A stretch of 64,000 bases of DNA from a virus: positions 62,001-126,000 of the IMG/VR virus record IMGVR_UViG_3300042261_002390; one strand, written 5' to 3'. How positions within the stretch are numbered: position 1 is the first letter of the stretch; every line of letters begins with the position of its first letter. A program made the position numbers and the translations under genes. The notes below the pieces were generated by a model, which was not told the DNA's origin, did not search any database, and was given only the letters and a program-made list of their open reading frames with translations. Shown in pieces: positions 34,401-62,800 of this stretch.

Positions 34401-37400
34401 TAAGTACATCCAATACTAACGATATTGCCCTCAATTCTAAATCATGTGGTGGAATTTATATTAAATCACAATCAGGCACTAGTAATTCAACAGTTAGTTT
34501 TGTTGGTTCTGTTGGGTTGCAAGTTGATTATGACGCTGTTAATGGTTTTGCATTATATGATAATAGGGTTGGTGCTAGTCGAACTGGTTTAGTGTATGCT
34601 GATGATTATAGCTCAAATTATGTGAATCGTTCATTAGTAGATAAAGCTTATGTGGATAGTGTTGCGACTGGTTTAGATGTTAAGTCTGCAGCATTGGTTA
34701 GTACAACCACAAATATTACATTAAGTGGTTTAACTACTGTTGATGGCATAACGTTAACGACAGGCGATAGAATTTTAGTCAAAGACCAAATAAATGGTGC
34801 TTTGAATGGTATATATAGTGCTAGTACTGGTACTTGGGGTCGTACTAGTGATTATGATTTTTCACCAAGTGGTGAAATTAGTAATGGTAACCTAATCCCC
34901 GTAACAAGTGGTAATACAAATGGTAATAGTATTTGGATATTAACAACGCCTAACCCAATAGTGAGTGGAGATACATTAATTTTTTCTAAATTCTCACAAC
35001 AAGCAGGAATTATTGAGGGTAATGGTATTAATGTAACGACTGTTGGTACAAATAAACAAATTTCAGTAGAGTTGCCCCCAAGTGCATGTGGTTTACAATT
35101 TAATGGTACTGGTTTAGAAGTTGATTACGATATTTTCCGTTTAGGTTTATGTTCTGCAACAGGTGGATATGTGGATATTAGAGCAACTAAAGGCGTTGCA
35201 AGTGGAAATGAGATTCCTGTGAAAATTAACACTGGTGGAACTAATTCATTATATGTAGATTCTTCATCTGTAATTACTTGCATTGGCAATCCTGTGTTAT
35301 CTGCAAATAATGGATTGAATAAGATTGGCTGCAATGTACGCTTAGGTGGGACATTGACAGGTGCTACAACAATTAATGGTGGAACTAATGCTTTGACATT
35401 CTGTTGTGTCTGTGCATTGGGAATTGGATATACTACAAGTGCAACAATTACAGATGCGAATGCAACACCAAGAGGGTTGGTATATGCTGGAAATTATTCA
35501 GCAACATATTGTGACCGTTCGTTAGTCGATAAAGGATATGTTGATAGTTTGGTAACATCAGGCGTATTAGCTTGTAACGGTTTAAGTAAAGTGGGAAATA
35601 CTGTTATTTTAGGCGGTGCATTAACCGGAAATACTTTTATTAGTTATGGTGCAAATAGGTTGTGTTTCATTGATGGCGGTACTTCATGCATGGATATTAT
35701 TTCTGATTGTAGCCAAATTCATGTTCAAAACACTTCATTGTGTTTAAGAAGTTGTACATTAGGTTCTTGTGTTGGTACGGTTTGTCTTACAAATTCAGGT
35801 ATTATATCTATTTCAAGTAATGCTACAAATTGTGGTGTTAGGGTAACATCACCATCGACTGGTGCTATTTATAGCGCAGATTATAGCGGTAATTTTATTA
35901 ATGAATCATTAGTAACTAAAAGGTATGTTACTGGTATAACTAGCTCAATATGTAGTAATTATTTATGTAGTGCAAATAATGGTTTAACTAAGTCTGGAAC
36001 TAATGTTCGTTTAGGTGGTGCATTAACAGGAAACACTGCAATTACTGGTGCATATACTTTAAGTATTTGTGGTGGCGCTAAATTAAATACTGCTTGCGGA
36101 TATCAAATTAGTGGTAGTACCGTATTAAGAACAAGTCCTAATTCAATTAATAATATTTTGATTGGAGAGTCTGCAGGCAATAGTACGATGACTGGCACTA
36201 ATAACTTTGTAGTAGGATGTCAAGCTCTTTTAAGTAACACAACTGGCTATAATAACATCGCTAATGGTTATTTAGCACTTAATAAAAACACAATCGGTTA
36301 TAATAATATTGCCAACGGTAATGGTGTACTTTATGCTAACACAATTGGTTGTAATAATATTGCCAATGGTTATAATGCTCTTTACTGTAATATTTGTGGT
36401 AATGGAAATATTGTCAATGGTTATAGTGCACTTTTTAATAATACAACTGGTTGTGATAATATTGCTAATGGCTTTATAGCACTAGCTATGAATATAAATG
36501 GTTCTAATAATATTGCCAATGGTTATTATGCTCTTTATAATAATACTACTGGTTCTAACAACATTGCTAGTGGCTGTCAAGCATTATATTGCAATACAAC
36601 TGCCAACAATTTAATTGCAATTGGTATAAATGCTTTATATAATAACAAATGTATTAATGCTAGTTGTAATGGTCAATATAATATTGCTGTTGGTCACGGC
36701 TCATTAAGTGGAAATACTTATGGCTGTGCAAATTATGCTTTTGGTTATGGTGCGTTAAGCGGGAATACATATGGTTGCTATAATATTGCAAATGGTTATC
36801 AAACACTTGCGAAAAATACAACAGGCAGTGACAATATTGCAATTGGGTATCAGAGTCTTTATTCGAATACCGGAGGTACTGCTAATATTGCAATCGGCTC
36901 ATCTGCCTTAAAATCAAATACAAAGGGTTTAGATAATATTGCAATTGGTTGCATTTCATTGAATGCAAATACTTTGGGATGTTTTAATACTGCAATAGGT
37001 GGTTATTCATTGAATGCAAATACTATCGGTAATTTTAATATTGCTGTGGGTAATTCTGCACTTATGTGCAATACGTGTGGTTGCAATAATACTGCATATG
37101 GTTATTCTGCTCTTGGTCTTAATAGCTCAGGATGTAATAATCTTAGTTTTGGATTCAGCAGTAATTTAATGAATACTACGGGAAATAATAACATTGGATT
37201 GGGATATCGTGCAGGATATTCTAATTCTACTGGCTCAAATAATATATTTATCGGAACGTGTGCAGGTTATAATGAAACAGGTTCTGGTAAATTATACATT
37301 GCTACAGGTGCAACAAATCAATTAATATATGGTGATTTTGCCACTAAAGAAGTAACATTGCCTAAACTTAAAGTTTGTGAAACACCTGCCACTGGAAGTT

Positions 37401-38110
37401 TTAGCGATAATGTGTTGGTATGGAACTCAAGTGATAAATGTGTTAAGCAATATAATTTATCTTCATGTTTTTCAAACGCAATAACTGGTGCAACAAATGG
37501 TTTAACTATAACAGGACAAAAAATTAAATTAGGCGGTAGTCTAACTGGTAATACAGATATTTCAGGAGCATATACATTAGGATTTAATAATTCAATTGTT
37601 AATGTTACCGGAAGTACTTCGGTAAATATTAGTAGTAGTGGTTCTGTTAATATTAATGGAACATCGAGTGTTGGTATTACTGGTTCGGTTAAATTACTAA
37701 CAACTCCATCAAATGGAGCATGTAGCGATTCTGCGTTAGTTTGGAATTCAAGTGATAATTGTATTAAAAAGGTCAGTGCAAATGGATTGTTTGGTATATA
37801 TTCAATAACTGGTGTTTCAACGAATGCTACTTTATCTGCTGATAATCAAGTAATATTTGTCGATACTACATCGGGTGTTGTAACAATTACATTACCTACT
37901 GCAGCAACAATTACTAATGGTAAGGTCTATATGGTTAAAAATACTGCATGTGGTTTGATAAATAATGTTATCATTGATTCTGGATTAAATTCAACAATCG
38001 ATGGCTCAAGATGTGCATTGATTAATACTAATTATGGTGCGCTTCAATTAATACGAGCATGTACTGCAGGTTCTAATAGTGTTTGGTATACGTTATCATT
38101 CAATAACTAA
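31448..38110 (+). CDS. Giant tail fibre of 2220 residues
   Basis: The largest gene in the window. The N-terminus (ETKLNLTNDKFCQTDGSLLT, LSGDTQI) is the shared attachment module. The shaft alternates about ten NGL-x-x-G-x-NV-x-LGG-x-LTG-x-T modules, three SLV-x-K-x-YV-x-G connector segments, a VDGITLTTGDRILVKDQ fibre domain, and two arrays of 17-residue repeats (pattern YNNIANGYLAL-x-x-NT-x-G); the second array, residues about 1580-1960, has some 20 units. The C-terminus (YMVKNTACGLINNVIID, WYTLSFNN) forms a cap. It is strikingly rich in Cys, Asn, Gly and Thr. It probably trimerises and forms the long receptor-binding fibre. A terminator follows at 38130. Confidence 0.78.
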   Translation: MSIETKLNLTNDKFCQTDGSLLTLSGDTQISSVGTIKYETNQSSTYTSRSLTDAGYVTGLTKQLCTTANNGITKTDCNFHLGGALTGDTFISGNYSLNICGSAKLNSNNGYQINNNTVLNSPSNDYNSIFVGINAGATGNTGNNDIAIGAYTLRKLVFGAGGGHNVAIGSQNLCNSADGCNNVAIGTSVMSASCTGSYNIGIGSQSLTRNCGSYNIGLGVSSLLCNRTGECNIGIGLESLKLNFYGCQNIAIGNQTLCTNSCGNNNIAIGLGAGFSATGNSSVFIGKNAGYYETGSDKLYIGNSQTQSLIYGDFLNNFVTLPTLKLCSTPGIGTTSDNILVWNSSDKCVKIVSGGAVLTSAITGATNGLTKTGQNVKLGGILTGDTIIYGNSKSLSLGTCDCIINAFNVNSGSANIRPTGALTLYGATISINNFASYDCNYCCSFSKYSLVDKNYVTGTTISTANNGLTSNNRNIRLGGTITGDTCITYNNAKLAFCTEGGACNISLCNLGSEVKLSSRCAYMISTSVDSCQSNVGVKNGCVDIFSNISECGVQITAPTTGAVYIADYSSGFVNESLVSKRYVTGLTTTSGVQSANNGLTKSGTNVRLGGTLTGNTVIDGAYSLGFNNSIINLTGSSCVNLSGVVNLITTPAVGSTSDNILVWNSGDKSIKTVSGGAVLTSAITGATNGLSKTGQNVKLGGTLTGNTTIGGSSTLCITAPSISTDVQHLTFDSNPITPTAFGSLFYKNNSLNFNREFSGVTLQIGEETVVRVTNTTGSLIENGSAVYICGAVSGIPAIAKTIASSSSNAVNTLGLTTMGISDNNEGYVTILGLVHDIDTSSWSAGSRIYLSSTQAGCLTATAPSYPNEVIHIGYVTCQDVLGSILVAPVIETSYTSISTFTGYTASTAIVLNNKLDNCIFNNYTGATSSTLDYLLDVSSFAVTGATNGLSKSGVRDVCLGGTISNPVTICGASSVKIGDTNGITLSTSNTNDIALNSKSCGGIYIKSQSGTSNSTVSFVGSVGLQVDYDAVNGFALYDNRVGASRTGLVYADDYSSNYVNRSLVDKAYVDSVATGLDVKSAALVSTTTNITLSGLTTVDGITLTTGDRILVKDQINGALNGIYSASTGTWGRTSDYDFSPSGEISNGNLIPVTSGNTNGNSIWILTTPNPIVSGDTLIFSKFSQQAGIIEGNGINVTTVGTNKQISVELPPSACGLQFNGTGLEVDYDIFRLGLCSATGGYVDIRATKGVASGNEIPVKINTGGTNSLYVDSSSVITCIGNPVLSANNGLNKIGCNVRLGGTLTGATTINGGTNALTFCCVCALGIGYTTSATITDANATPRGLVYAGNYSATYCDRSLVDKGYVDSLVTSGVLACNGLSKVGNTVILGGALTGNTFISYGANRLCFIDGGTSCMDIISDCSQIHVQNTSLCLRSCTLGSCVGTVCLTNSGIISISSNATNCGVRVTSPSTGAIYSADYSGNFINESLVTKRYVTGITSSICSNYLCSANNGLTKSGTNVRLGGALTGNTAITGAYTLSICGGAKLNTACGYQISGSTVLRTSPNSINNILIGESAGNSTMTGTNNFVVGCQALLSNTTGYNNIANGYLALNKNTIGYNNIANGNGVLYANTIGCNNIANGYNALYCNICGNGNIVNGYSALFNNTTGCDNIANGFIALAMNINGSNNIANGYYALYNNTTGSNNIASGCQALYCNTTANNLIAIGINALYNNKCINASCNGQYNIAVGHGSLSGNTYGCANYAFGYGALSGNTYGCYNIANGYQTLAKNTTGSDNIAIGYQSLYSNTGGTANIAIGSSALKSNTKGLDNIAIGCISLNANTLGCFNTAIGGYSLNANTIGNFNIAVGNSALMCNTCGCNNTAYGYSALGLNSSGCNNLSFGFSSNLMNTTGNNNIGLGYRAGYSNSTGSNNIFIGTCAGYNETGSGKLYIATGATNQLIYGDFATKEVTLPKLKVCETPATGSFSDNVLVWNSSDKCVKQYNLSSCFSNAITGATNGLTITGQKIKLGGSLTGNTDISGAYTLGFNNSIVNVTGSTSVNISSSGSVNINGTSSVGITGSVKLLTTPSNGACSDSALVWNSSDNCIKKVSANGLFGIYSITGVSTNATLSADNQVIFVDTTSGVVTITLPTAATITNGKVYMVKNTACGLINNVIIDSGLNSTIDGSRCALINTNYGALQLIRACTAGSNSVWYTLSFNN

Positions 38111-39241: not shown

Positions 39242-41299
39242 ATGGCATACGATAATAGACCAAATTTAAATTGTAGACAATTCGACCAAAAGGGTAGTGA
39301 TTATTTATTTTTAGCCGGACAAAACTGTATTTGTAGTGGTGGAACAATAAGTTCAGATAATGGATATCAAGTTTCAGGTATCACTGTATTTGATACCGGG
39401 ATGGTATCAAGTTCAATTCAAATTGGCTGTAATGCAATTTCATCTGGAATTGCTGCCACTGTTGTTGGTACAGGCGCACTCGCATCAGGATTAACCTCAA
39501 TTTCAATCGGGTGCAATAGTAAATCATGTGGTAATGGTAGTATTTCAATAGGAACAGTATCAAATGCACACGCTCTTTGTGGTATCTCAATCGGATGTGG
39601 TGGTAATGCTTGTTGCGATTATTCAATAAGTATTGGTGCTAATTCAATTTCATATGGGTCTGGTGGTATTGCTGTTGGTAAGATAACTAAATCATATGAA
39701 AATAGTATTTCAATTGGAAATAATTCGTGTGCAACAAATATTAATGGGATTGCTATTGGCGAAAATAGTATAGCAATTAACAGTTCAAGTATTGCTATAG
39801 GTTATAATACCCTTGCATACTGTACTTGTTCACATGTCATTGGAAATTATATATGTAATAATATTAAAGATTCTCTGGGTTTAGGCTGGTATAGTGGTGC
39901 TACATATCAAACTCCTTCAATTTTATTTTCCGATACATTATCATATTTTTATGGAAAGGGTGATGCTAAAGTAGGGTTCGGAGTTTGTAACCCAACTGCA
40001 AGGGTTGATATATATACCACTACAACATGTGGATTTAAATTGGTTGATGGTAATCAAGGTGCTGGAAGAATATTAACTAGTGATACTAATGGTTATGGAA
40101 AATGGTGTGCTGTAAGTTTAGGTATTACGACAGCTAATAATGGTTTAAATGTTATTGGTAGTAATGTACGATTAGGCGGTGCATTAACTGGAAACACTTC
40201 TATTAGTGCAAATTATACTCTCACAATTGGCTCATGTGCAAAATTAAACACTGAATGTGGTTATCAAATTAGCGGTAATACAATACTATGCACAGCTAAA
40301 AGTGATATCACCAGTGTTTTTATGGGATATAATGCAGGCTCAAATTCAGTTAATTCATATAATATTGGAATTGGTTATAGTACGTTAAAATGCAATCCCA
40401 CTGGAAATAATAATATCGCTGCTGGTTTTAAAGCATTGTGTTGTAATACTTGTGGAAGTCATAATATTGCTTTTGGTAATTCCGCACTTCAGGTAAATAC
40501 TAGTGGGTGCAATAATATTGCAATCGGTAGCTCTTCATTATATACCAATTCTGTTGGGTATAGTAATGTTGCTGTTGGTGGTGGTTCACTCCAAAGCAAT
40601 ACTGGTGGTACTCAAAATGTTGCTATTGGTGCATCGGCTTTAGTTCAAAATACCAAAGGTAATGACAATACTGCTGTTGGTGCACTTGCATTAATGCTTA
40701 ATACTTGTGGTTGTCACAATGTTGGTATTGGATATGAATCTGTATGGAAAAACACTACTGGTTGTGAAAATATTGGTATTGGATTATTTAGTTTATCGTG
40801 TAGCCAAACTGGAAGTAAAAATGTTGCTGTTGGTATTTGTGCCGGATTTAGTAGTGTTGGTAGTAATAATGTTTATCTGGGAAATAGTGCAGGTTTTTAT
40901 GAAACTGGCTCAAATAGACTACACATTGGTAATTGTTGGTGCTGTTCATTAATATATGGTGAGTTTGATAATAAAATGGTGAAAATTGATGGCACATTGT
41001 GTGCTAGTTCGAATATGTGTGCTACTAATTTTATTTTGACTTCCGATGAAAGATATAAAACAAATGTTTCATCAATTTCAATTGCCCCCGTAAATATTGA
41101 CTATAAACAATTTGAAATGTGTGATGAACCCAATCAATTGAGATATGGTGTTTTAGCTCAAGAATTACATTTAGTAAATCCTGAATTAACTAGAATTAAT
41201 TCTTGTGGATACTTAAGTGTAGCATATATTGACTTATTAATTAAAGAAGTCGCATATTTAAAATATAAAATATCTGAATTAGAAAAGAAAATTCAATAA
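39242..41299 (+). CDS. Tail fibre with C-terminal S74 intramolecular chaperone domain
   Basis: A 685-residue protein. N-terminal attachment module (NRPNLNCRQFDQKGSDYLFL). Residues about 55-215 and 370-560 are arrays of S-x-(S/A)IG and NN-(I/V)-A-(I/V)G beta-roll repeats. The C-terminal 90 residues form a Peptidase_S74 domain: TSDERYKTNVSSI carries the Ser and Lys of the self-cleaving dyad, and LRYGVLAQEL, a Pro-Glu pair and VAYIDLLIKEVAYL complete the fold, with a final coiled coil. Such domains trimerise the fibre and then cut themselves off. The first 200 residues after the start have a simpler repeat than other fibres. Confidence 0.82.
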   Translation: MAYDNRPNLNCRQFDQKGSDYLFLAGQNCICSGGTISSDNGYQVSGITVFDTGMVSSSIQIGCNAISSGIAATVVGTGALASGLTSISIGCNSKSCGNGSISIGTVSNAHALCGISIGCGGNACCDYSISIGANSISYGSGGIAVGKITKSYENSISIGNNSCATNINGIAIGENSIAINSSSIAIGYNTLAYCTCSHVIGNYICNNIKDSLGLGWYSGATYQTPSILFSDTLSYFYGKGDAKVGFGVCNPTARVDIYTTTTCGFKLVDGNQGAGRILTSDTNGYGKWCAVSLGITTANNGLNVIGSNVRLGGALTGNTSISANYTLTIGSCAKLNTECGYQISGNTILCTAKSDITSVFMGYNAGSNSVNSYNIGIGYSTLKCNPTGNNNIAAGFKALCCNTCGSHNIAFGNSALQVNTSGCNNIAIGSSSLYTNSVGYSNVAVGGGSLQSNTGGTQNVAIGASALVQNTKGNDNTAVGALALMLNTCGCHNVGIGYESVWKNTTGCENIGIGLFSLSCSQTGSKNVAVGICAGFSSVGSNNVYLGNSAGFYETGSNRLHIGNCWCCSLIYGEFDNKMVKIDGTLCASSNMCATNFILTSDERYKTNVSSISIAPVNIDYKQFEMCDEPNQLRYGVLAQELHLVNPELTRINSCGYLSVAYIDLLIKEVAYLKYKISELEKKIQ

Positions 41300-43077: not shown

Positions 43078-46000
43078 ATGGCAACTGATACTAAACCGAA
43101 TTTAATTAGTGGTAAATTTGAACAGTGTGTTGGAGATGTATTAAATCTTTCAGGATGCACTCAGATTTATGGTACAATGGATATTCATCCTCAAGGTACT
43201 ATTGACTCATGTAGTGGATATAAGATATCTGGGGTTACTACTTTAATTAATCAATTTCGCTGTGGTTATGCCGGAGCATCTGGTCAACCATTAATTGGTC
43301 AAGGTACTACAACAGCACCTACATGGGCAAATTTAAATACTGGTTACATAGCGTATAAATCAGCAAGTAGTTTTGTTGATTCACAAATATATACTGATGG
43401 TACTAATATTGCAATAGGTACAACCACATTAGATGGAAAACTTAATGTTAGTGGAAAAACAAAAACCGCTACACTTCAAATTACAACAAATGCTGGTGCT
43501 GGAAAAGTATTAGTATCCGATGCAAGTGGAAATGCTGCTTGGTGTACATTATCAGCATCAGGCATTCAAACAGCTAATAATGGTTTAAATGTTATAGGTA
43601 GTAATGTACGATTAGGTGGTGCTTTAACTGGAAATACTTCTATTACCGGGGCATATACCCTAAGCATTTGCGGTGGTGCAATACTGAATACTACATGTGG
43701 ATATCAGGTTTCGGGGTCTACTATATTTAGGACATCACCAAATACAATATCATCAATATTAATTGGATGTGGTGCAGGTAATAACACTTCCACGGGAGCT
43801 GATAATATAGGTATTGGATACCAAGTATTGTTTAAGAATACTAGTGGTATTGGTAACATTGCAATTGGATGTCAATCACTTCAATGTAATATTACCGGAT
43901 GTTATAATGTTGCGAATGGTTTTGGTTCATTATTATATAACACAAGTGGAAATAATAATATTGGTCTTGGTAATGGTAGCCTATATTCAAATTCAATTGG
44001 TTGTGCCAATATTGGTGTTGGATATCAAGCATTGCTTAGTAATTCAAGTGGTTGTTATAATATAGGTGATGGATTTCAAGCACTTTATTCAAATACTACG
44101 GGATGTTTTAATATTGCACATGGATTTCGAACACTATACTGTAATACGACAGCAAATAATTTAATTGCGATTGGTACATGTGCATTATATAATAATACTT
44201 GTATTAATGCTAGTTGTAATGGTCAGTACAATATAGCTGTTGGACATGGTGCATTAAGTGGAAATACTTATGGCTGCGCAAATTATGCTTTTGGTTATGG
44301 CTCATTAAGTGGAAATACCACTGGATGTTATAATGTAGGTATTGGTTATCAAACACTTACAAAAAATACAACTGGTCGTAATAATATTGCTAAAGGTTAT
44401 CAGGCGTTAGCAAAGAATACAATTGGTATTGATAATATTGCCAATGGTTATGGGGCACTTTTTTGTAATACTTGTGGTTCATATAATATCGCCAATGGTT
44501 GCCAAGCACTTTGTACTAATACAACTGGCTGTAACAACATAGCCAATGGTTATCAAGCTCTTTTTCTTAATACTATTGGTTGTCATAATATAGCTAATGG
44601 CAATGGTGCACTTTTTACTAATTCTTGTGGTTCATATAATATCGCCAATGGTAATTTTGCACTTATTAGTAACACAACTGGTTGTGATAATATTGGATTA
44701 GGTCAAAATAGTGGTTATTTAAACTCAACAGGTTCATTAAATATATTTATAGGTAGATGTGCTGGATATAATGAAACTGGTTCAGGTAAACTATATATTG
44801 CTACAGGTGCAACAAACCAATTAATATATGGCGATTTTTCAATTAAAGAAGTAACATTACCTAAACTTAAACTTTGTGAAACACCCGCAGATGGTACTTG
44901 TAGTAATTCTGTATTAGTTTGGGATTCTAGTAGTTGTTGTGTGAAAAAAGCACCATATTATAGCGGATGTACTGGTATTTTGACAGCTAATAATGGTTTG
45001 ACTAAATCAGGTACGAATGTTCGTTTAGGTGGGGCGTTGACGGGTGATACAATAATTAGTGGTAGCAATAGTTTAAGTATTTGTGGAAATGTTGGTATTG
45101 GCACTATTTCGCCAACATATAAATTAGATGTTAGAGGCACTACTGCTGCAAATGGTGTGCGTTCGGCGATGGGATATGATATGTATCCTGTTCCAGACCC
45201 CACTTCACTATCAGGAGTTGTTAGTGCAGGTGGTAGCGTTGATACAGGTACACATTATTATTGGGTATCATTTACAACTGCAATAGGTGAAACTCACGCT
45301 TTTCTTTCTAGTGTTATAACAACAACTGCTGGTAATAATACTGTCACATTAACTGTCCCAACATCAACTGACCCTAGAGTTACTGGAAGAAAATTATATA
45401 GAACTAAAGCAGGTACTAACTATTGGCTTGAATATTATTTAGGTGCTATAAATGATAATGTAACGACAACATATGTGGATACTGCAGCAGATTCAACTTT
45501 AAGTGGTAGTAATGCAGTAGCTAATACAAGAGCTAATACCACAAGTTATTATCTTAGTGTTAATGGTGTTAGAATTGCAATGCCAGACCCAAATGTAACT
45601 ATCTTTGGTTATAATGCTGGTAGTTCTATTACTACTTCTCCACAATCTGTTTATATTGGTTCTAGTGCTGGTAGATTAGTAACTACTGGTGGATATAATA
45701 CTGTGGTTGGTTATTTGTCCCTATATACTAATGTTGTGGGTGCTTCGAATTCTGCGTTTGGAACATCTACATTGAGATATACAACAGGTAGTCAATCTTC
45801 TGCATTTGGTTCATTAGCTTTAATGAATTTTGTCGGTGATGGCTCAACGGGTATTGGTTATGCTGCTGGTATGAATATGGGTTGTGGTAATTCAAGCACT
45901 TATTTAGGTTATATGGCAGGTTACTATCTTTCAAATGGTAGTTCTTTATTTACTGGTGCTACGAATAGTTTATATTTAGGTGCAAGCACTAAAGGTTCGG

Positions 46001-46977
46001 CAAATGGCGTATCCAATGAAATTGCTATTGGTCAAAATGCAATTGCTAAAGGTTCAAATACTGCAGTTTGGGGTAATACGTCAATAACAAGTCATTATTT
46101 TAGTGGTAGTATAACGTTAACTGGTTCTGCCCCTACAGCTAAATTACATCTACCTGCAGGTACTGCTACGGCAGGTACAGCACCATTGAAATTAAATTCA
46201 GGTACTAATTTAACTAATCCAGAAGCTGGTGCAGTTGAATTTGATGGCACTAACTTATATTTTACTCCATCATCGACAAGAAGAACTGTTGCATTCTTGG
46301 ATTCGCCTACATTTACAGGCACACCGTTAGCACCAACTGCATGTGCAGGTACAAATACTACACAAATAGCAACAACAGCTTTTGTTACCACAGCAGTAAG
46401 TGCTGCAGGTGGTGGTGCAACTGTTGATGATGTTGCACCTACAGGAAGTGTGGGAAAATTATGGTTTCAGCCAACAAACGGTAGTTTAATGGTATATGCC
46501 GGGGGTGCTTGGGTTACTGGAAACAGAAACGGTATTGATGGTAAAGGTTGGACTGGTGGTTCATATAATGCATCGACAGGTATTGTAACGTTTGGCTCAT
46601 CAAATGGTTTAGGATTTTCAACAGGCGATTTACGTGCTTCACTTACTGATGATTCGGTAACATATGCTAAATTAGGTACTGGTTTTAAGAACGCTATTAC
46701 TGATAATGATGGTGCATTTGACTTTTCAACTGCAGGTATTATTACTGCAAATATAAGTGGAACAACGACAATTAGTTTCACTAATTTACAAAGAAACAAA
46801 ACATTAAAAGTAAAATTGGTTATTACTAATTCGCCAACAATTAATTTCCCATCATATGCAGTAAAATTAGCTGGTAGTCAAACACTTGCGAATGGTACTT
46901 TCTATTTATATTTTGACTGTTGGGAAAGTACGGGTGGTTCAGAATTAGTTTTATATAGTATAATGAAGGCAGCTTAA
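43078..46977 (+). CDS. Large tail fibre of 1299 residues, partly duplicated from the giant fibre
   Basis: N-terminal attachment module (DTKPNLISGKFEQCVGDVLN). Residues about 230-560 are 17-residue NN-I-A-x-G-x-x-x-L repeats; part of this array is nearly identical at DNA level to the giant fibre (CINASCNGQYNIAVGHG, YGCANYAFGYG). Then follow a globular insert (residues about 680-830, with HYYWVSFTTAIGETHAF), a second beta-roll section (about 840-1000), and a C-terminal region with a PTFTGTPLAPTA phage-fibre motif and a beta-rich cap ending LVLYSIMKAA. No S74 domain is present. It probably forms a trimeric side fibre. Confidence 0.75.
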   Translation: MATDTKPNLISGKFEQCVGDVLNLSGCTQIYGTMDIHPQGTIDSCSGYKISGVTTLINQFRCGYAGASGQPLIGQGTTTAPTWANLNTGYIAYKSASSFVDSQIYTDGTNIAIGTTTLDGKLNVSGKTKTATLQITTNAGAGKVLVSDASGNAAWCTLSASGIQTANNGLNVIGSNVRLGGALTGNTSITGAYTLSICGGAILNTTCGYQVSGSTIFRTSPNTISSILIGCGAGNNTSTGADNIGIGYQVLFKNTSGIGNIAIGCQSLQCNITGCYNVANGFGSLLYNTSGNNNIGLGNGSLYSNSIGCANIGVGYQALLSNSSGCYNIGDGFQALYSNTTGCFNIAHGFRTLYCNTTANNLIAIGTCALYNNTCINASCNGQYNIAVGHGALSGNTYGCANYAFGYGSLSGNTTGCYNVGIGYQTLTKNTTGRNNIAKGYQALAKNTIGIDNIANGYGALFCNTCGSYNIANGCQALCTNTTGCNNIANGYQALFLNTIGCHNIANGNGALFTNSCGSYNIANGNFALISNTTGCDNIGLGQNSGYLNSTGSLNIFIGRCAGYNETGSGKLYIATGATNQLIYGDFSIKEVTLPKLKLCETPADGTCSNSVLVWDSSSCCVKKAPYYSGCTGILTANNGLTKSGTNVRLGGALTGDTIISGSNSLSICGNVGIGTISPTYKLDVRGTTAANGVRSAMGYDMYPVPDPTSLSGVVSAGGSVDTGTHYYWVSFTTAIGETHAFLSSVITTTAGNNTVTLTVPTSTDPRVTGRKLYRTKAGTNYWLEYYLGAINDNVTTTYVDTAADSTLSGSNAVANTRANTTSYYLSVNGVRIAMPDPNVTIFGYNAGSSITTSPQSVYIGSSAGRLVTTGGYNTVVGYLSLYTNVVGASNSAFGTSTLRYTTGSQSSAFGSLALMNFVGDGSTGIGYAAGMNMGCGNSSTYLGYMAGYYLSNGSSLFTGATNSLYLGASTKGSANGVSNEIAIGQNAIAKGSNTAVWGNTSITSHYFSGSITLTGSAPTAKLHLPAGTATAGTAPLKLNSGTNLTNPEAGAVEFDGTNLYFTPSSTRRTVAFLDSPTFTGTPLAPTACAGTNTTQIATTAFVTTAVSAAGGGATVDDVAPTGSVGKLWFQPTNGSLMVYAGGAWVTGNRNGIDGKGWTGGSYNASTGIVTFGSSNGLGFSTGDLRASLTDDSVTYAKLGTGFKNAITDNDGAFDFSTAGIITANISGTTTISFTNLQRNKTLKVKLVITNSPTINFPSYAVKLAGSQTLANGTFYLYFDCWESTGGSELVLYSIMKAA

Positions 46978-48047: not shown

Positions 48048-48632
48048 ATGAGTACAAGTATTAGTTTTCCAGCAAATCCACAAGTGGGTGATACATATAC
48101 ATATGGTTCGGTGACCTATGAATGGAATGGTATTAGTTGGAATGTTAAATCAACAATTACATATCTAACCGATATTGTTCAAGATACTACTCCGCAATTG
48201 GGTGGTAATTTAGATATGAATGATAAAAGCATTCAATTGACAGCAGCACTTTCAACTAATCAATCGTATGTTGGTACTATTGAAAGCGGAACTGTTGGTG
48301 AAAATGTTGCATTTGGTGATGTTTTATATTTAAAGTTTAGTGATGGTAAGTGGTGGAAAGCAAATGCTAGTGGATATACCACAACACCTGCAGTAAGAAT
48401 GGCATTGGCGACAATTACTGCGAATAATAGTGGTAATTTATTGGTTGAGGGATATATTCGTTATGATTCTTGGAGTTTCGCAACAAATAAGGTGTATTTA
48501 TCTGCATCAACTTCCGGGGCAATTACAACAACACAGCCATCAACTACTGGAAATCAAATACAGGTAATTGGCGATGCTAAAACAAGTGCAAAACTATATT
48601 TTAAGCCATCAAGAGATGTCGGTCAAATTTAA
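48048..48632 (+). CDS. Short tail-fibre-like protein
   Basis: A 194-residue protein. The N-terminus SFPANPQVGDTYTYGSVTYE and the WNGISWNV segment are a common small domain at the start of phage tail fibres (FP-x-NP-x-VGDTY...W-x-G-x-W). Then follow LTDIVQDTTPQLGGNLDMND, another frequent fibre motif, and a beta-rich C-terminal domain (KWWKANASGYTTTPAVRMAL, LVEGYIRYDSWSF) related to the VYICGAVSG.. segment of the giant fibre. It sits ten bases after the glycine-rich gene and six before the large repeat adhesin, so it is in the same transcript. Confidence 0.65.
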   Translation: MSTSISFPANPQVGDTYTYGSVTYEWNGISWNVKSTITYLTDIVQDTTPQLGGNLDMNDKSIQLTAALSTNQSYVGTIESGTVGENVAFGDVLYLKFSDGKWWKANASGYTTTPAVRMALATITANNSGNLLVEGYIRYDSWSFATNKVYLSASTSGAITTTQPSTTGNQIQVIGDAKTSAKLYFKPSRDVGQI

Positions 48633-48637
48633 TAAAA

Positions 48638-51600
48638 ATGGATAAAAAACAATTAGATAGACTTGTTTGGAATGAATTATTTAAGGAGCGTGAAATAATA
48701 ATCACTCAAAATAATGATGGTTCATATATTATGAATCAAATGCCGTTTCATGCTGAAATGAAATCGAAGGCAAATGATAATGAATTTCTAACATATCGTT
48801 TTGGCGATAATTTCTTATCATATGACTTAATTAGTATTGGCTTTGATAATGGTGAAATTATTGGTAATCCAAAAACAGGTGAAACAATATTAGAATCCGA
48901 TTCTAAATTAAAATATAAAAATTGTTTTGGAAGTGGTATTGATATTGATGTGAATATCACAAAAGAGGGTGTTGGTAAAAATATTGTAATAAATTCATTA
49001 TCTGACTTAGGCGAAATACCTGACAATACTGAATATGTTGATGTTTTATTTAAAATAAATACAAATTTTGATTTTAGTTTTTTAACTGAAGACGAGTTTA
49101 TTATTGGCGATGTTCTGTATATTGATTCGGATAGTTATATTAATAAAGTCAAAACTTGGGATTTAAATAATTCGGTTGATGATGAAACCAAAGGTATTTT
49201 ATATCTTAAAAATGGCGAGATTTATCTTAAAAAACAAATAAGTGTTGAATATTTAAAATCGGCAATATTTCCTGTTTATAGTGATTTATTTCTCAGTTTT
49301 GGCGTAACACCAACAGGTGCTAACTTTGGCTCAAGTTTAGAATATCCTACTATATCTAAATTAGACAGTACTCATTTTGTTGTCGCATATCCTGATATTT
49401 CAAATCTTAGTTATGGTACGGCTATTATTGGTACTATTAATGGAGGTCGAATTACTTATGGTAGTGCATACGTTTTTAATTATAGTACTACTTCCAATAT
49501 ATCGGTTATATCATATAATAGTACTCATTTTGTGGTAGCATATACTGATGCTGGTAATAATTATTATGGCACAGCAATGATTGGAACAGTAACTGGAACT
49601 GCAATTAGTTATGGTAGTGGATATGTGTTTAGTGCAGTGTTTGGTACTTCTAATACATCTGTTTCATTATTAGATAGTACTCATTTTGTCGTAGCATATA
49701 ATGCTAACTCAAATGGTTCTGCTGTGATTGGCACTATAAGTGGTACTGCAATTAGTTATGGTAGCACATATGTATTTAATGCTGCAGCCATTTCATATAC
49801 ATCTGTTTCAGTTTTGAATAGTACTCATTTTGTTGTAGCCTATCGTGATGATGGTAATAGTAATTATGGAACTGCAATTGTTGGTACTGTGAGCGGAACT
49901 GCTATTAGTTATGGTAGTGAATATGTGTTTAATACTGCAAATAGTAATTATACATCAGTTTCGTTATTAGATAGCACACATTTTGTTGTGGTATATACTG
50001 ATGAAGGAAACGGTAGTTATGGTACAGCAATTATCGGTACTGTAAGTGGCACTGCAATTAGTTATGGTAGCGAATATGTGTTTAATGCTGCAACTACTAT
50101 TAATACATCTGTTTCATTATTAGATAGTACTCATTTTGTTGTAGCCTATCGTGATAGTGGCAACAGTAATTATGGAACAGCTATAGTTGGTACTGTGAGT
50201 GGTAGTGTTATAAGTTATGGTAGCGAATCTATATTTTATGCTGGAAATATTACTTATGTGTCTGTTTCGTTGTTGGATGATAGTCATTTTCTAGTTGCAT
50301 ATTATATTGGTAGTGGTAGGGTATCAATAGGTACAGTTGGTGATATTGGTATTGGCTATGGTAGCGAATATGTGTTCAATGCAGCATTTACACAATATAT
50401 ATCATCTGTTAAAATAGATAGCACTCATTTTATAACAACCTATCAAGATGGCGGTAATAGTAATTATGGTACTGCAATAATTGGTACTATTAGTTTAAAT
50501 AATGTAATTAGTTATGGTAGTGAATATGTATTTAATCCAGCAACCACTACTGATATATCTGTTTCGTTACTGGATAGTACTCATTTTGTTGTAACATATT
50601 CTGATGGCGGTAATAGTTATTACGGTACTGCGATAATTGGTACTGTAAGTGGAACTGCAATTAGTTATGGTAGTGAATATGTATTTAATGCAGCAAGCAC
50701 TACATATATTTCAGCGACTATGCTGGATAGCACTCATTTTATTGTAGGTTACAAGGATGGTGGTAATAGTAGTTATGGTACAGCAATAATTGGTACTGTA
50801 AGTGGAAGTGCAATTAGCTACGGTAGTGAATACGTATTTAATGCTGCAGCTACTGATTTTATTAGCGTTAGTGCATTAGATACCACGCATTTTGTTGTAA
50901 CATATTCTGATGGCGGTAATAGTTATTACGGTACGGCAATAATTGGTACTGTTAGTGGAACGGCAATTAGTTATGGTAGCGAATATGTGTTTAAGGCGGG
51001 TAATGCTCAATATATATCATCAGCTAAAATAGATGGTACTCATTTTGTTGTAGCATATTCTACTGCATATGGTGCTGCTGTGATTGGTACTGTAAGTGGG
51101 AGCGTAATTAGCTACGGCAACACATATTGGTTTAACAATTCTCAAGTTCAAAATGATAATCCTATAAGTCTTTCATTATTAGATAGTACTCATTTTGTAG
51201 TCGCATATGGAAATAGTGATATTGGTGGTACTAAATGGGGTGCTGCTGTGGTTGGTACTATAAATGGGACGGTGATTGATTTTAATGTTGGATATATGTT
51301 TAATGGAGCATATAGTTGGTATTTGTCAACAGTAAATATTGATGCCACACATTTTGTTGTCACATATTATGATGGTGGTAATAGTTATTATGGTACTGCA
51401 ATTGTGGGACAAATAAATTATGATGAATTATTTTTTAACTATTCAATTTATAATAATAATTCATCGTATATTTCAATTGCTAAATTAGATAGTACACATT
51501 TTGTTATTACATATGCTGATGATGGAAATAGTAGTTATGGAACAGCAATAATTGGTACTGTAACAAATGGTGTAATTTCATATGGAAGTGAATATGTGTT

Positions 51601-52540
51601 TAATACAGCAACCACTGATTTTATTAGTGTTAGTGCATTAGATAGTACACATTTTGTTGTTACATATCGTGATGGTGGCAACAGTAATTATGGCACTGGA
51701 ATAATTGGCACAGTAAGTGGAACGGCAATTAGTTATGGTAGCGAATATGTATTTAACACTGCAAGTACTTCATATAAATCAGTAATGACTTTAGATAGTA
51801 CTCATTTTGTTGTTGTTTATTCTAATGTTGGAGGACCTACTGGAAGTGCTGTAGTCGGTACTGTTAGTGGAACAGCAATTAGTTATGGTACTGTATACGG
51901 ATTTAATACTGCAACGAATTATACTTCTGCTGCATTGTTGGATAGTACTCATTTTATTGTTGGATTTTCTAATGGAGCTAATAGTAGTTATGGGACGGCA
52001 ATAATCGGTACAATAAGTGGAACTGCGATTAGTTATGGTAGTAAATATGTTTTTAATTCAGCAAGCACTGGTTATATTTCAGCGATTATGCTGGATAGTA
52101 CTCATTTTGTTATTGCATATGCTGATGATGGAAATAGTAGTTATGGTACTGCAATAGTTGGCACTGTTAGTGGAACTGTAATTAGTTATGGCAGCGAATA
52201 TGTGTTTAATGCTGCAACAACTACATATGTTTCAGCAACTATGTTGGATAGTACTCATTTTATCGTGACATATACTAATGGCGGTAATAGTAGTTATGAA
52301 ACTACAATAGTTGGTACTGTGAGCGGGACTGCAATTAGTTATGGTAGTGAATATGTTACCAAACCAGTCTCAACAACATATAAAAATATTGCTCAATTAG
52401 ATAGCACTCATGCTATTGTGGGAGATAGTACTAATGGTACATATATTACATATTCTCCAACAATTATAGGTAAAATAATTAATGCTGTTAAAAACTTATT
52501 TTGGAATGCTGTTAAATTAATTAAATGGAATAATGCATAA
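48638..52540 (+). CDS. Adhesin with about 21 tandem 50-residue beta repeats
   Basis: A 1300-residue protein. Residues 1-230 are a non-repeated N-domain. From about residue 235 to 1280 I count about 21 copies of a roughly 50-residue unit (LDSTHFVVAY, then GNS-x-YGTAIIGTVSGTAIS and YGSEYVFNAA). Units vary in a few positions, and some are degenerate (the 7th, 12th-14th and last). The four-strand size per unit suits beta-propeller blades or a beta-solenoid. The last 25 residues form a basic amphipathic tail. Repeat-rich surface proteins with this layout usually bind host glycans or proteins. The DNA repeat (about 150 bases) is diverged enough to be coding, not a simple satellite. Confidence 0.7.
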   Translation: MDKKQLDRLVWNELFKEREIIITQNNDGSYIMNQMPFHAEMKSKANDNEFLTYRFGDNFLSYDLISIGFDNGEIIGNPKTGETILESDSKLKYKNCFGSGIDIDVNITKEGVGKNIVINSLSDLGEIPDNTEYVDVLFKINTNFDFSFLTEDEFIIGDVLYIDSDSYINKVKTWDLNNSVDDETKGILYLKNGEIYLKKQISVEYLKSAIFPVYSDLFLSFGVTPTGANFGSSLEYPTISKLDSTHFVVAYPDISNLSYGTAIIGTINGGRITYGSAYVFNYSTTSNISVISYNSTHFVVAYTDAGNNYYGTAMIGTVTGTAISYGSGYVFSAVFGTSNTSVSLLDSTHFVVAYNANSNGSAVIGTISGTAISYGSTYVFNAAAISYTSVSVLNSTHFVVAYRDDGNSNYGTAIVGTVSGTAISYGSEYVFNTANSNYTSVSLLDSTHFVVVYTDEGNGSYGTAIIGTVSGTAISYGSEYVFNAATTINTSVSLLDSTHFVVAYRDSGNSNYGTAIVGTVSGSVISYGSESIFYAGNITYVSVSLLDDSHFLVAYYIGSGRVSIGTVGDIGIGYGSEYVFNAAFTQYISSVKIDSTHFITTYQDGGNSNYGTAIIGTISLNNVISYGSEYVFNPATTTDISVSLLDSTHFVVTYSDGGNSYYGTAIIGTVSGTAISYGSEYVFNAASTTYISATMLDSTHFIVGYKDGGNSSYGTAIIGTVSGSAISYGSEYVFNAAATDFISVSALDTTHFVVTYSDGGNSYYGTAIIGTVSGTAISYGSEYVFKAGNAQYISSAKIDGTHFVVAYSTAYGAAVIGTVSGSVISYGNTYWFNNSQVQNDNPISLSLLDSTHFVVAYGNSDIGGTKWGAAVVGTINGTVIDFNVGYMFNGAYSWYLSTVNIDATHFVVTYYDGGNSYYGTAIVGQINYDELFFNYSIYNNNSSYISIAKLDSTHFVITYADDGNSSYGTAIIGTVTNGVISYGSEYVFNTATTDFISVSALDSTHFVVTYRDGGNSNYGTGIIGTVSGTAISYGSEYVFNTASTSYKSVMTLDSTHFVVVYSNVGGPTGSAVVGTVSGTAISYGTVYGFNTATNYTSAALLDSTHFIVGFSNGANSSYGTAIIGTISGTAISYGSKYVFNSASTGYISAIMLDSTHFVIAYADDGNSSYGTAIVGTVSGTVISYGSEYVFNAATTTYVSATMLDSTHFIVTYTNGGNSSYETTIVGTVSGTAISYGSEYVTKPVSTTYKNIAQLDSTHAIVGDSTNGTYITYSPTIIGKIINAVKNLFWNAVKLIKWNNA

Positions 52541-55930: not shown

Positions 55931-56773
55931 TTATATTAACCACGACCATGTGATGCGTTTGACAATATTGTAAATAATACCATAGCTTCTGTTGTATTTT
56001 ATTTGAATTTGTTTTATAGACATTCCATTTTCATAGTCATTTCTAATTGTTAACACTTCATCTTTATTGGTAAGTGCCATAGCTCTACCGTTTTTTTCGC
56101 CTTTATTAATACCTTTATGTGTTTCTGATATTTTTTTTCTAGTTTCATCAGTTACAATACGTCCTTTACCATTTTGATTACCTTTTAAAGCAATACTGAT
56201 TTTCAATTTGCGTTCTTCTGAAAAAATTCTACCTGTGCTACTTTTGGATAATTTTTCTTTTGTTTCTTTTGAAAGTGTTTTTCCTTTTCGGCTAATACTC
56301 ATTTTTAGTCTAGTTTCTTCGGATGGCTTATGTCCTTTTCTTCCTTTTCTATTTACATTTAATTTAACACCTTTTTTGGCGATACTCATATTTTTTCTTG
56401 TTTTTTCTGATAACTTAACCCCCAAATGACTTTCACTCATTTTTAATCTGGTCTCATCAGTATGTATATATCCTAATATATTACCTGCCTTTGGTAATAT
56501 ATTGTAACCAAAACGTCTATCACAAGCATTAAATAAATCAATGTAATGTTGTTCTCTCTCAAGCAAAGTATTGATTTCAGTATATTCAATAACAATAAAT
56601 TCAAAATTATTAGTACCATATTTATTCCATGATTTTTGTAAATATGAATTGTCATGTTTATTTAAGTTTAAATCACTAATGTGTTTTTTCCATCTATTAT
56701 TTATATTTATCGAACTACCAACATACTGTTTATTGTTTATTTTATTCTTTATTACATATATTCCAGATTTCAT
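55931..56773 (-). CDS. GIY-YIG homing endonuclease with NUMOD3 repeats
   Basis: A 280-residue minus-strand protein, the only one in this orientation. KSGIYVIKNKINNKQYVGSS at residues 2-21 is a textbook GIY-YIG core. After it (residues about 100-225) come repeated NUMOD3 motifs (S-E-E-T-R-x-K-M-S-x-S-x-K-G-x), and a C-terminal helix-turn-helix (EVLTIRNDYENGMSIKQIQI). It differs from the two tRNA-island endonucleases, which lack the repeats. Its promoter is a late-type motif in minus orientation. It is an insertion between late fibre genes and the replication block. Confidence 0.88.
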   Translation of the reverse strand: MKSGIYVIKNKINNKQYVGSSININNRWKKHISDLNLNKHDNSYLQKSWNKYGTNNFEFIVIEYTEINTLLEREQHYIDLFNACDRRFGYNILPKAGNILGYIHTDETRLKMSESHLGVKLSEKTRKNMSIAKKGVKLNVNRKGRKGHKPSEETRLKMSISRKGKTLSKETKEKLSKSSTGRIFSEERKLKISIALKGNQNGKGRIVTDETRKKISETHKGINKGEKNGRAMALTNKDEVLTIRNDYENGMSIKQIQIKYNRSYGIIYNIVKRITWSWLI

Positions 56774-59865: not shown

Positions 59866-62800
59866 ATGGAAATAAATAAATTAAGTGTTTTAAGTGAAAT
59901 CAAAGGATTTCTTGAAGGATATAATGATGAATTAAAATATTTGGTAAATGTCGAGACAGATTCTAAATCTGCAGTAGCTGAATGTGTAATTCATCCACCC
60001 GGAGAAAAACCTAAAATTATAAGAGTGGTTTATGAACCATTCATGTATATGAAAGATTTGTCGAAGCATAATGTTGAACTATATGCCGGACATTCTGAAT
60101 CGTATATTAAGAGTATGCAAATCAAGCACGGTATTACAATCACCAAGTTAAAAACAGGTAATCAAAAAAGGATGGTTAATGGCTATTGCTATAAGCTAAC
60201 AAGCTATAAATCATATACTAATATTATAAATTATATTCGTGATGGAGGTTTGAATCCATATGAAAAAGGCGTTGATGAAAATGGTAATTTTTTAAGGGAT
60301 GCTAAGGGTGAATTTGTCTATCCATATCGTGATTTATTTTATGCACCTAGAACTACTGAACAGTTTTTTATTAGCAAAAAAGCTCGTTTGTTTAAAGGTT
60401 TTGAGGAATATAAAAATGTTCACAAAGTAACATTTGACATTGAAACAACTGGTTTGAGATATCAAATGTCAAGAGTATTTGCTATTGGTGTTAGGGATAA
60501 TCGTGGGTTTGAAACAATACTTGAAGTCGAAAAATTGAATGACGATGAATCTGAAGTTAAGTTAATCCAAGATTTTTACAACCTTATAAACATATTACAA
60601 CCCGCAGTTATATCTGGTTATAATTCAGAAGAATTTGACTTTGAATTTTTATTGGGTAGAGCAAAGATATTGGGTATGGATATGGATAAATTGCCCACTA
60701 CCCTTAAAGATGGAGAACATCTAAAAAGAATTCCCAATACTTCAGTAAAATATGGAAATAGTGCAGATAAATATACTGCAACAAATATGTGGGGATATTC
60801 TGTTATCGATATTATTCATGCTTCGAAAAAAACAGCAGCAATTAATACTGAGGTTAAGGCAACTGGTTTGAAGTACATCGCAAAACATGAAAAAATTGCA
60901 AAACCAAATAGAACATACATTAAGGGTGAAGATAATTCGATAGGTAGATTCTATAGTGAAAATAAAATATTTTTGATTGATGAGAATAATGGTTATGTTC
61001 AAATACCTGATGAATTTCAACAAATAGGTAATAAGTTCTATACGCTTCAAGCTAATAAGAATAGATTGAGTGAAGCTGATTATAAAAATCTGAGAGTAAA
61101 ATACTTAGATAGTGATAAAGAGTTTGTCGCTTGGTTTAGAACTATGCCACCAACTATGAACAAATTTATTACAGGTAGGAAAATTGTTAGACAATATTTG
61201 CTTGATGACTTATGGGAAACCGAACAAGTTGATGAATTGTATAACCAGTCATCATTCATGTTGGCAAAAATTATTCCCACAACATATCATCGTGTATGTA
61301 CGATGGGTACTGCAGCAATTTGGAATTTATTGCTTACTGCATGGAGTTATGAGAATGACTTAGCGATTCCAGAATGTGATGTTCAGGATAGATTTTCTGG
61401 TGGTTTGGCTAGATGTTATAAGGTTGGATATTCAACTCGTATCATTAAGATTGACTACGCATCGTTGTATCCTATGATTCAGTTGACCGATAACGTATTT
61501 CCGATGTTTGATATCACCGGGGTTATTAAAAAAATGTTATTGTATTTGACAACTACACGTAATATCTATAAAAAATTAGCGAGTAAGACTAAACTGAATG
61601 ATGAAGAAGTTAAACTGTTGGAACAGATTGACCGTGAGGTACATGTTAAATATTTGAATAATGCATTTACACCGGAAGATATTGCGATGTTTAAGATTAA
61701 ACAATTACCAATTAAGATTTTGAACAACTCGTTGTTCGGTGCATTGGGTTCGGCAATATCATTCAATTGGTCTGATAATACTTGTGCTGCTAGGATTACG
61801 TGTACAGGTAGGTTACATTTAAGACACGCTATTGACTGGTTTAGTAAATTTGGTTGTATTGCATTACTTGCTGTAACAGATGGTATTAACTTTAGTTTTC
61901 CTGAGAAGACAACCATACGTGTTACTGATGAGGGAATAACTGAGGGAGTAAATGAGGGAGTAATCGAAGAAATGTGGCAATATGGTGGTAAGACCGGAAT
62001 CTCTGCATTGATTGAAAAATATAATAAAGAAGAAATGAAGCCACCATTTATGGCTGTTGATGATGATGGTGAATCGTTATCTTGTTTAAATCTCTCTCGT
62101 ATTAATTATGCTACATTGGCATTGGAGAAGGATAAAAAAACTGGTGAAATGAAAGAAAAAGTCAAATTAACTGGTAATACTATTAAATCTAAAACGATGC
62201 CGGAATATATTGAAGAATTTATTGATAAAGGATTGAATATGATTCTTCACGGACAGGGTAAAGAATTTGTTGAATATTATTATGACTATTGTGATAATAT
62301 TCGTTACATGCAAATTCCATTGAAAAAGATTGCTAGTAAGAGTAAAATTAAGACTACATTAGCTGCATACCGTAAACGTGGTAAGGATAAGAATGGTAGA
62401 GAAAAAGGTATGCAGGCACACATGGAATTATTGTTGGAGAAACGAGATAAATTGTGTGAAGAATTGTTTGAAAAACATAAAGATAATTTCGATTTAAAAA
62501 AATACGAAAAGAAGGGTATTACCATAGAAGATAAAATGAAATTAGTTTCAGACTATATGCCACCAGAACCACCGTTGGATAGCGTAGTGTATTATGTGAA
62601 TACTGGTTACAAAAAATCACATGGCGATTCTAGAATGATTACTGATAAATTTACTGGCAAAGAAAGATTTTGTGCAACTTTAATTGATACTGAAGATTTG
62701 ATTGAAAATCCAAATATGCTTGGTGGATATAATTATGAAAAATATTTAGATGCATTCAATAAGCGTGTTGAAACACTATTGGCAGGATTTGACGTTGAAA

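Follow-up and report, generated by a model that had tools for sequence, protein, structure and literature searches.

The virus gene described here encodes a protein that probably begins with an N-terminal domain and continues as three contiguous seven-bladed beta-propellers, all built from one repeat family, and that would act as a binding module of the tail. The gene lies in a stretch of 64,000 nucleotides (positions 62,001 to 126,000 of IMG/VR record IMGVR_UViG_3300042261_002390), which we refer to as the window and in whose coordinates all positions are given. We propose that the N-terminal domain would serve for attachment or as a linker, that each unit of about 51 aa would form one blade, and that the closing outer strand of each ring would be taken from just ahead of its first unit. 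On this scheme, rings 2 and 3 would open directly with the fourth strand of unit 7 and of unit 14, respectively, and no linker would lie between the rings. The features, with the basis of each assignment in brackets, are:

48048-48632, + strand: upstream neighbour, 194 aa (PHROG 31104, as for a gene near the propeller genes in the related loci L052 and L069)
48638-52540, + strand: whole gene, a 1300-aa tail-region protein with the 21-blade array (open reading frame)
48638-49282, + strand: N-terminal domain, residues 1-215 (BLASTP homology to L020, L015 and L033)
49283-49339, + strand: extra outer strand D0 ahead of unit 1, the predicted closing strand of ring 1 (strand in the model; layout of relatives)
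49283-50341, + strand: ring 1, D0 and units 1-7 up to the third strand of unit 7 (AF2)
50342-51418, + strand: probable ring 2, which would begin with the fourth strand of unit 7 and end with the third of unit 14 (rule of seven; strand-C ends)
51419-52477, + strand: probable ring 3, which would begin with the fourth strand of unit 14 and end with the third of unit 21 (unit 21 without a fourth strand; rule of seven)
52478-52537, + strand: C-terminal tail INAVKNLFWNAVKLIKWNNA, predicted helix (low-confidence full-length model)

An earlier note on this DNA had proposed about 21 blade-sized repeats at 49340-52500, and the array agrees with it closely. The open reading frame carries exactly 21 [ST]H[FA] anchor motifs (the fuller anchor is DSTHFVVAY), unit 1 starts at 49340, TRF detects a 153-bp period in the DNA of the gene independently of the protein motif count, and the self-match of the protein at lag 51 is 0.398, compared with at most 0.123 for any lag from 40 to 60 in 500 shuffles. 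Units 1-20 measure 47-53 aa each, with a mode of 51, and mean identity between units is 59% in protein and 72% in DNA. Unit 21 (from 52376) ends after its third strand and has no fourth, and a single fourth strand, LFLSFG, precedes unit 1; on a strict tally, 20 full units, unit 21 minus its last strand and the lone leading strand amount to 21 blades' worth. An irregular repeat number, which the same note had set against its own reading, was not seen, the count being 21 and the related arrays mostly holding exactly seven. As exact DNA repeats in the gene reach 47 bp at most, and as a second contig (IMGVR_UViG_3300047491_001207) is identical across its 3858 bp of the gene, an assembly artefact is an unlikely source of the copy number. 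Unit-to-unit comparison revealed no similarity period of seven in the array, so that whole-ring copying is not plainly its origin, and we rejected whole-ring duplication inside the gene on this ground. A second propeller gene of the same type was not found in the full virus record, which spans 246,149 bases.

The structural evidence comes from units 1-7. We modelled residues 212-572 with AF2, using an alignment that included 75 related rings, and obtained a mean pLDDT of 93.2 and a pTM of 0.92. The model contains seven A-B-C strand sets, a D strand in each of the six gaps between the sets, and one N-terminal strand (model residues 7-10, protein residues 218-221). Ring 1 is therefore confidently predicted to be a closed seven-bladed beta-propeller with four-stranded blades, as the earlier equation of each roughly 50-residue unit with one such blade had anticipated, and it is predicted to be closed by a strand from the opposite, N-terminal end of the array. 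The top match among PDB structures was the seven-bladed domain of CylK (7FH6, 7RON; Z 37.6, rmsd 2.2 over 330 residues), which is the closest solved fold despite 10% identity and no profile match; WD40 proteins scored below it, at Z about 31. Foldseek and VIA-align returned chiefly WD40, sialidase and other propeller proteins, the sialidases being generic fold matches only. Two unnamed viral models in BFVD (A0A516MFK3 and A0A516MG07) match ring 1 with a TM of 0.90 and 32% identity.

The full array behaved differently in modelling, which the note had suggested as a check and which thus gave a confident propeller for units 1-7 but a poor model for the whole. Folded as a single sequence, the 21 units reached a pLDDT of 54.9 and a pTM of 0.61, with other models at 26-40; when the full array was aligned with relatives in MAFFT, the register was lost, and these alignments were left out of folding. 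A published 47-blade array has likewise been hard to model (PMC9218822). The full-array model had two PDB matches, an autotransporter adhesin and a curli subunit, neither of them meaningful (E above 7). This low-confidence model is the only point in favour of a beta-solenoid or an open superhelix of 21 units with no closed rings. We regard such a fold as very improbable, given that ring 1 is a confident propeller whose best 50 structural matches all have Z of 30 or more, and that a solenoid gives no reason for seven-unit arrays that open with an extra strand.

This last feature belongs to a whole family of arrays, from which the case for three closed propellers draws much of its weight. Curated resources do not contain the repeat: Pfam and NCBIfam (including WD40 and other propeller repeats) gave no match above cut-off, PDB sequence searches gave none, the family profile retrieved nothing from the PDB even at E values as high as 10, and PHROG matches of the window protein were marginal only. 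The window protein, a triple unit and two related rings served as queries against annotated phages and gave no or weak matches, the best being Lentibacter phage ICBM2 (E 6e-4). A set of 356 phage records matched by P0002 was discarded, since among the matches listed it was the C-terminal domain of P0002 that matched and not the ring. A plasmid search for the repeat found none. A scan with a two-unit alignment, on the other hand, identified 25 loci in viral contigs and 9 in bacterial or archaeal genomes, all of them MAGs (Patescibacteria, Cloacimonadota and others), and a scan with five related rings produced 320 matching stretches. As judged from these searches, the repeat family is large, unnamed and common in uncultured viruses, and is missed by curated libraries. 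The earlier remark that no phage adhesin with this repeat was known is borne out by the curated libraries that we searched; uncultured viruses nevertheless carry the repeat commonly, and receptor-binding propellers of other kinds have been described in phages (PMC4901313).

To count blades, we applied a unit profile in D-A-B-C strand order to all fetched loci (80 loci kept out of the 320 stretches), leaving out arrays cut by contig ends, which resulted in 173 distinct arrays from viral contigs and bacterial MAGs. Exactly seven units were present in 155 of them and 14 units in four, while the window array alone had 21 and is the longest found in the family. Those of the 13 remaining arrays that we read by eye (all but the short or weak L044, L060 and L062) mostly resolve to seven: arrays of eight by profile are seven plus one split hit, weak units were missed or separated in the arrays of six and in L084, and L081|3109 is too degenerate for a certain count. 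Read in the same way, L018 has 14 contiguous units. Among the loci from the two-unit query alone, 29 of 32 arrays have seven units, and a two-unit query cannot favour seven. Like the window array, the related ones open with an additional D strand and have strand C as their last, and this is the layout of a propeller closed by its own N-terminal strand. Two side observations concern these loci. In L015 (ORF at 629), residues 771-1464, past the seven-blade ring, hold a diverged repeat of about 55 aa (SNHFINFW...QVFEVNTSTW), possibly another propeller type. In three bacterial MAG loci (L029, L032 and L033), the rings lie behind apparent signal or membrane segments, which suggests cell-surface relatives of the viral proteins.

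If one unit is one blade, and homologous arrays nearly always have seven per ring, then three times seven is the natural reading of 21. The three rings of the earlier note are in this sense supported by the ring 1 model and by the family rule of seven; as the full-array model is poor, we infer rings 2 and 3 and the division and packing of the three, the 7+7+7 split being drawn from homology and strand bookkeeping and not from a model. The array itself offers a further clue. The last blade of related rings mostly lacks the end of strand C (GTVSG) or has it in altered form, and we chose this segment, as a marker of their ring ends, to score the 20 junctions of the window array. Units 7 and 14 had the two lowest scores (7.0 and 12.1), and the chance of exactly this pair being lowest is 1 in 190. 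Unit 14 ends in VGQIN, as do ring ends in a number of relatives. A point that speaks against three rings is that relatives with two rings usually separate them by a linker of about 10-60 residues, and the window array has none.

The earlier note had placed degenerate units near 7 and 12-14, where they are indeed found, and had suggested that they mark ring boundaries. The strand-C ends agree with this suggestion for units 7 and 14, but a combined score that adds the next D strand ranks the junctions, lowest first, as 14, 13, 12 and 7. With unit 7 only fourth lowest, we consider the boundary support good rather than decisive. The blades could form propellers with another split (for example 8+6+7) or with boundaries at units 12-13, which are irregular too, and 15 published WD40 blades have been predicted as 7+8 (PMC9218822). 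We consider another split unlikely, as no related array that we inspected clearly departs from seven per ring, and as the two ends of the array fix rings 1 and 3 if each is seven.

What these propellers may do is suggested by where the gene lies and by where the units vary. The array gene is encoded among tail genes, both in the window and in relatives. In the window it is adjoined by YadA-like tail fibre or spike genes; large neighbours (28276-31359, 31448-38110, 39242-41299 and 43078-46977, the second known through DNA tandem repeats only) have YadA-head-like NIANGYQAL repeats and tail spike or virion PHROG matches. Among the relatives, L021 has a tape measure and a tail fibre near its propeller gene, L039 has genes with baseplate and tail-fibre matches, and L073 has a tail fibre. 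The N-terminal domain matches those of L020, L015 and L033 by BLASTP (E 4e-22, 1e-12 and 7e-27, respectively); in L020 and L015 the homologous domain precedes a single seven-blade ring, and in L033 a contig-truncated array of the same repeat. A viral search with this domain found the identical contig only. Elsewhere in the window, a GIY-YIG-like ORF that lies inside the tail module on the other strand (55931-56773, - strand) is perhaps a homing endonuclease, by motif only; 17301-19280 encodes a DnaB-like helicase; and the DNA polymerase at 59866-63567 is about 26% identical to those of Salinibacter phages, with no close cultured relative found by polymerase.

Given tail genes as neighbours both here and in relatives, a tail-borne binding protein is the most likely reading, with a role that is probably to grip the host. 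Its location on the virion and its binding function are inferred, as are rings 2 and 3 and the ring junctions. Variation across the family is concentrated in the B-C and D-A loops, and the C-D turn hardly varies. In propellers generally, loops of the B-C and D-A kind make up the top face, an assignment for which we also draw on PMC8916777. Variable loops on a constant scaffold would fit a recognition surface, and the three propellers may thus form a putative multivalent module for adhesion or receptor recognition on the virion tail. The propellers could instead be structural spacers, enzyme domains (CylK-like or sialidase-like) or assembly parts, and not host binders. The top fold match is indeed an enzyme domain, and propellers are structural nozzle parts in phage SU10 (PMC9509320). 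Such a role has a real but clearly minor share of the probability in our estimate: the variable top-face loops suit recognition, and CylK has its active site where the propeller meets an N-terminal Ca-binding domain (PMC8916777), a domain that is not recognisable in the window protein.

For a tail-borne binder, there is precedent in several phages. The C-terminal seven-bladed propeller of phiKZ gp131 (4GBF) lies on the periphery of the baseplate in a giant phage and has been proposed to bind a receptor (PMC4901313). It has the blade number of ring 1, but is described as a single propeller domain, and our PDB profile search found no sequence relation to the repeat family. The propeller of Staphylococcus phage phi11 gp45, which takes part in host recognition, is closed by its own N-terminal strand (PMC4901313), as here, but has five blades, and each chain of the trimer contributes one ring. 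Kelch-type proteins in phage CBB are among the propellers with proposed or shown receptor roles (PMC5259590). Highly repetitive propellers amplified from single blades have also been described, with long runs of near-identical blades predicted to form several rings (PMC9218822); these belong to other lineages such as WD40, and the 15-blade example is not a multiple of seven. The nearest comparison is with the loci of the family itself (L005-L113), which have the same repeat and the D0...C7 layout, and whose fold the BFVD models share, but which have one ring, or two mostly with a linker, and none of those fetched has 21 contiguous units. Thus, propeller binders on phage tails were already known, and the novelty lies in the repeat family and in a contiguous length of three rings.

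In conclusion, this family would be a common tail-module propeller of uncultured viruses, with so strict an adherence to seven that ring number may be predictable from sequence. We suggest, as a tentative idea that we hold with somewhat less than even confidence, that linker-less rings passing an outer strand onward would produce a rigid, highly multivalent 21-blade adhesin in a strictly seven-bladed family. If the rings bind host glycans, then host recognition could be read in this family from the number of rings and the variation of their loops, and an array of three rings would represent a natural multivalent binder.
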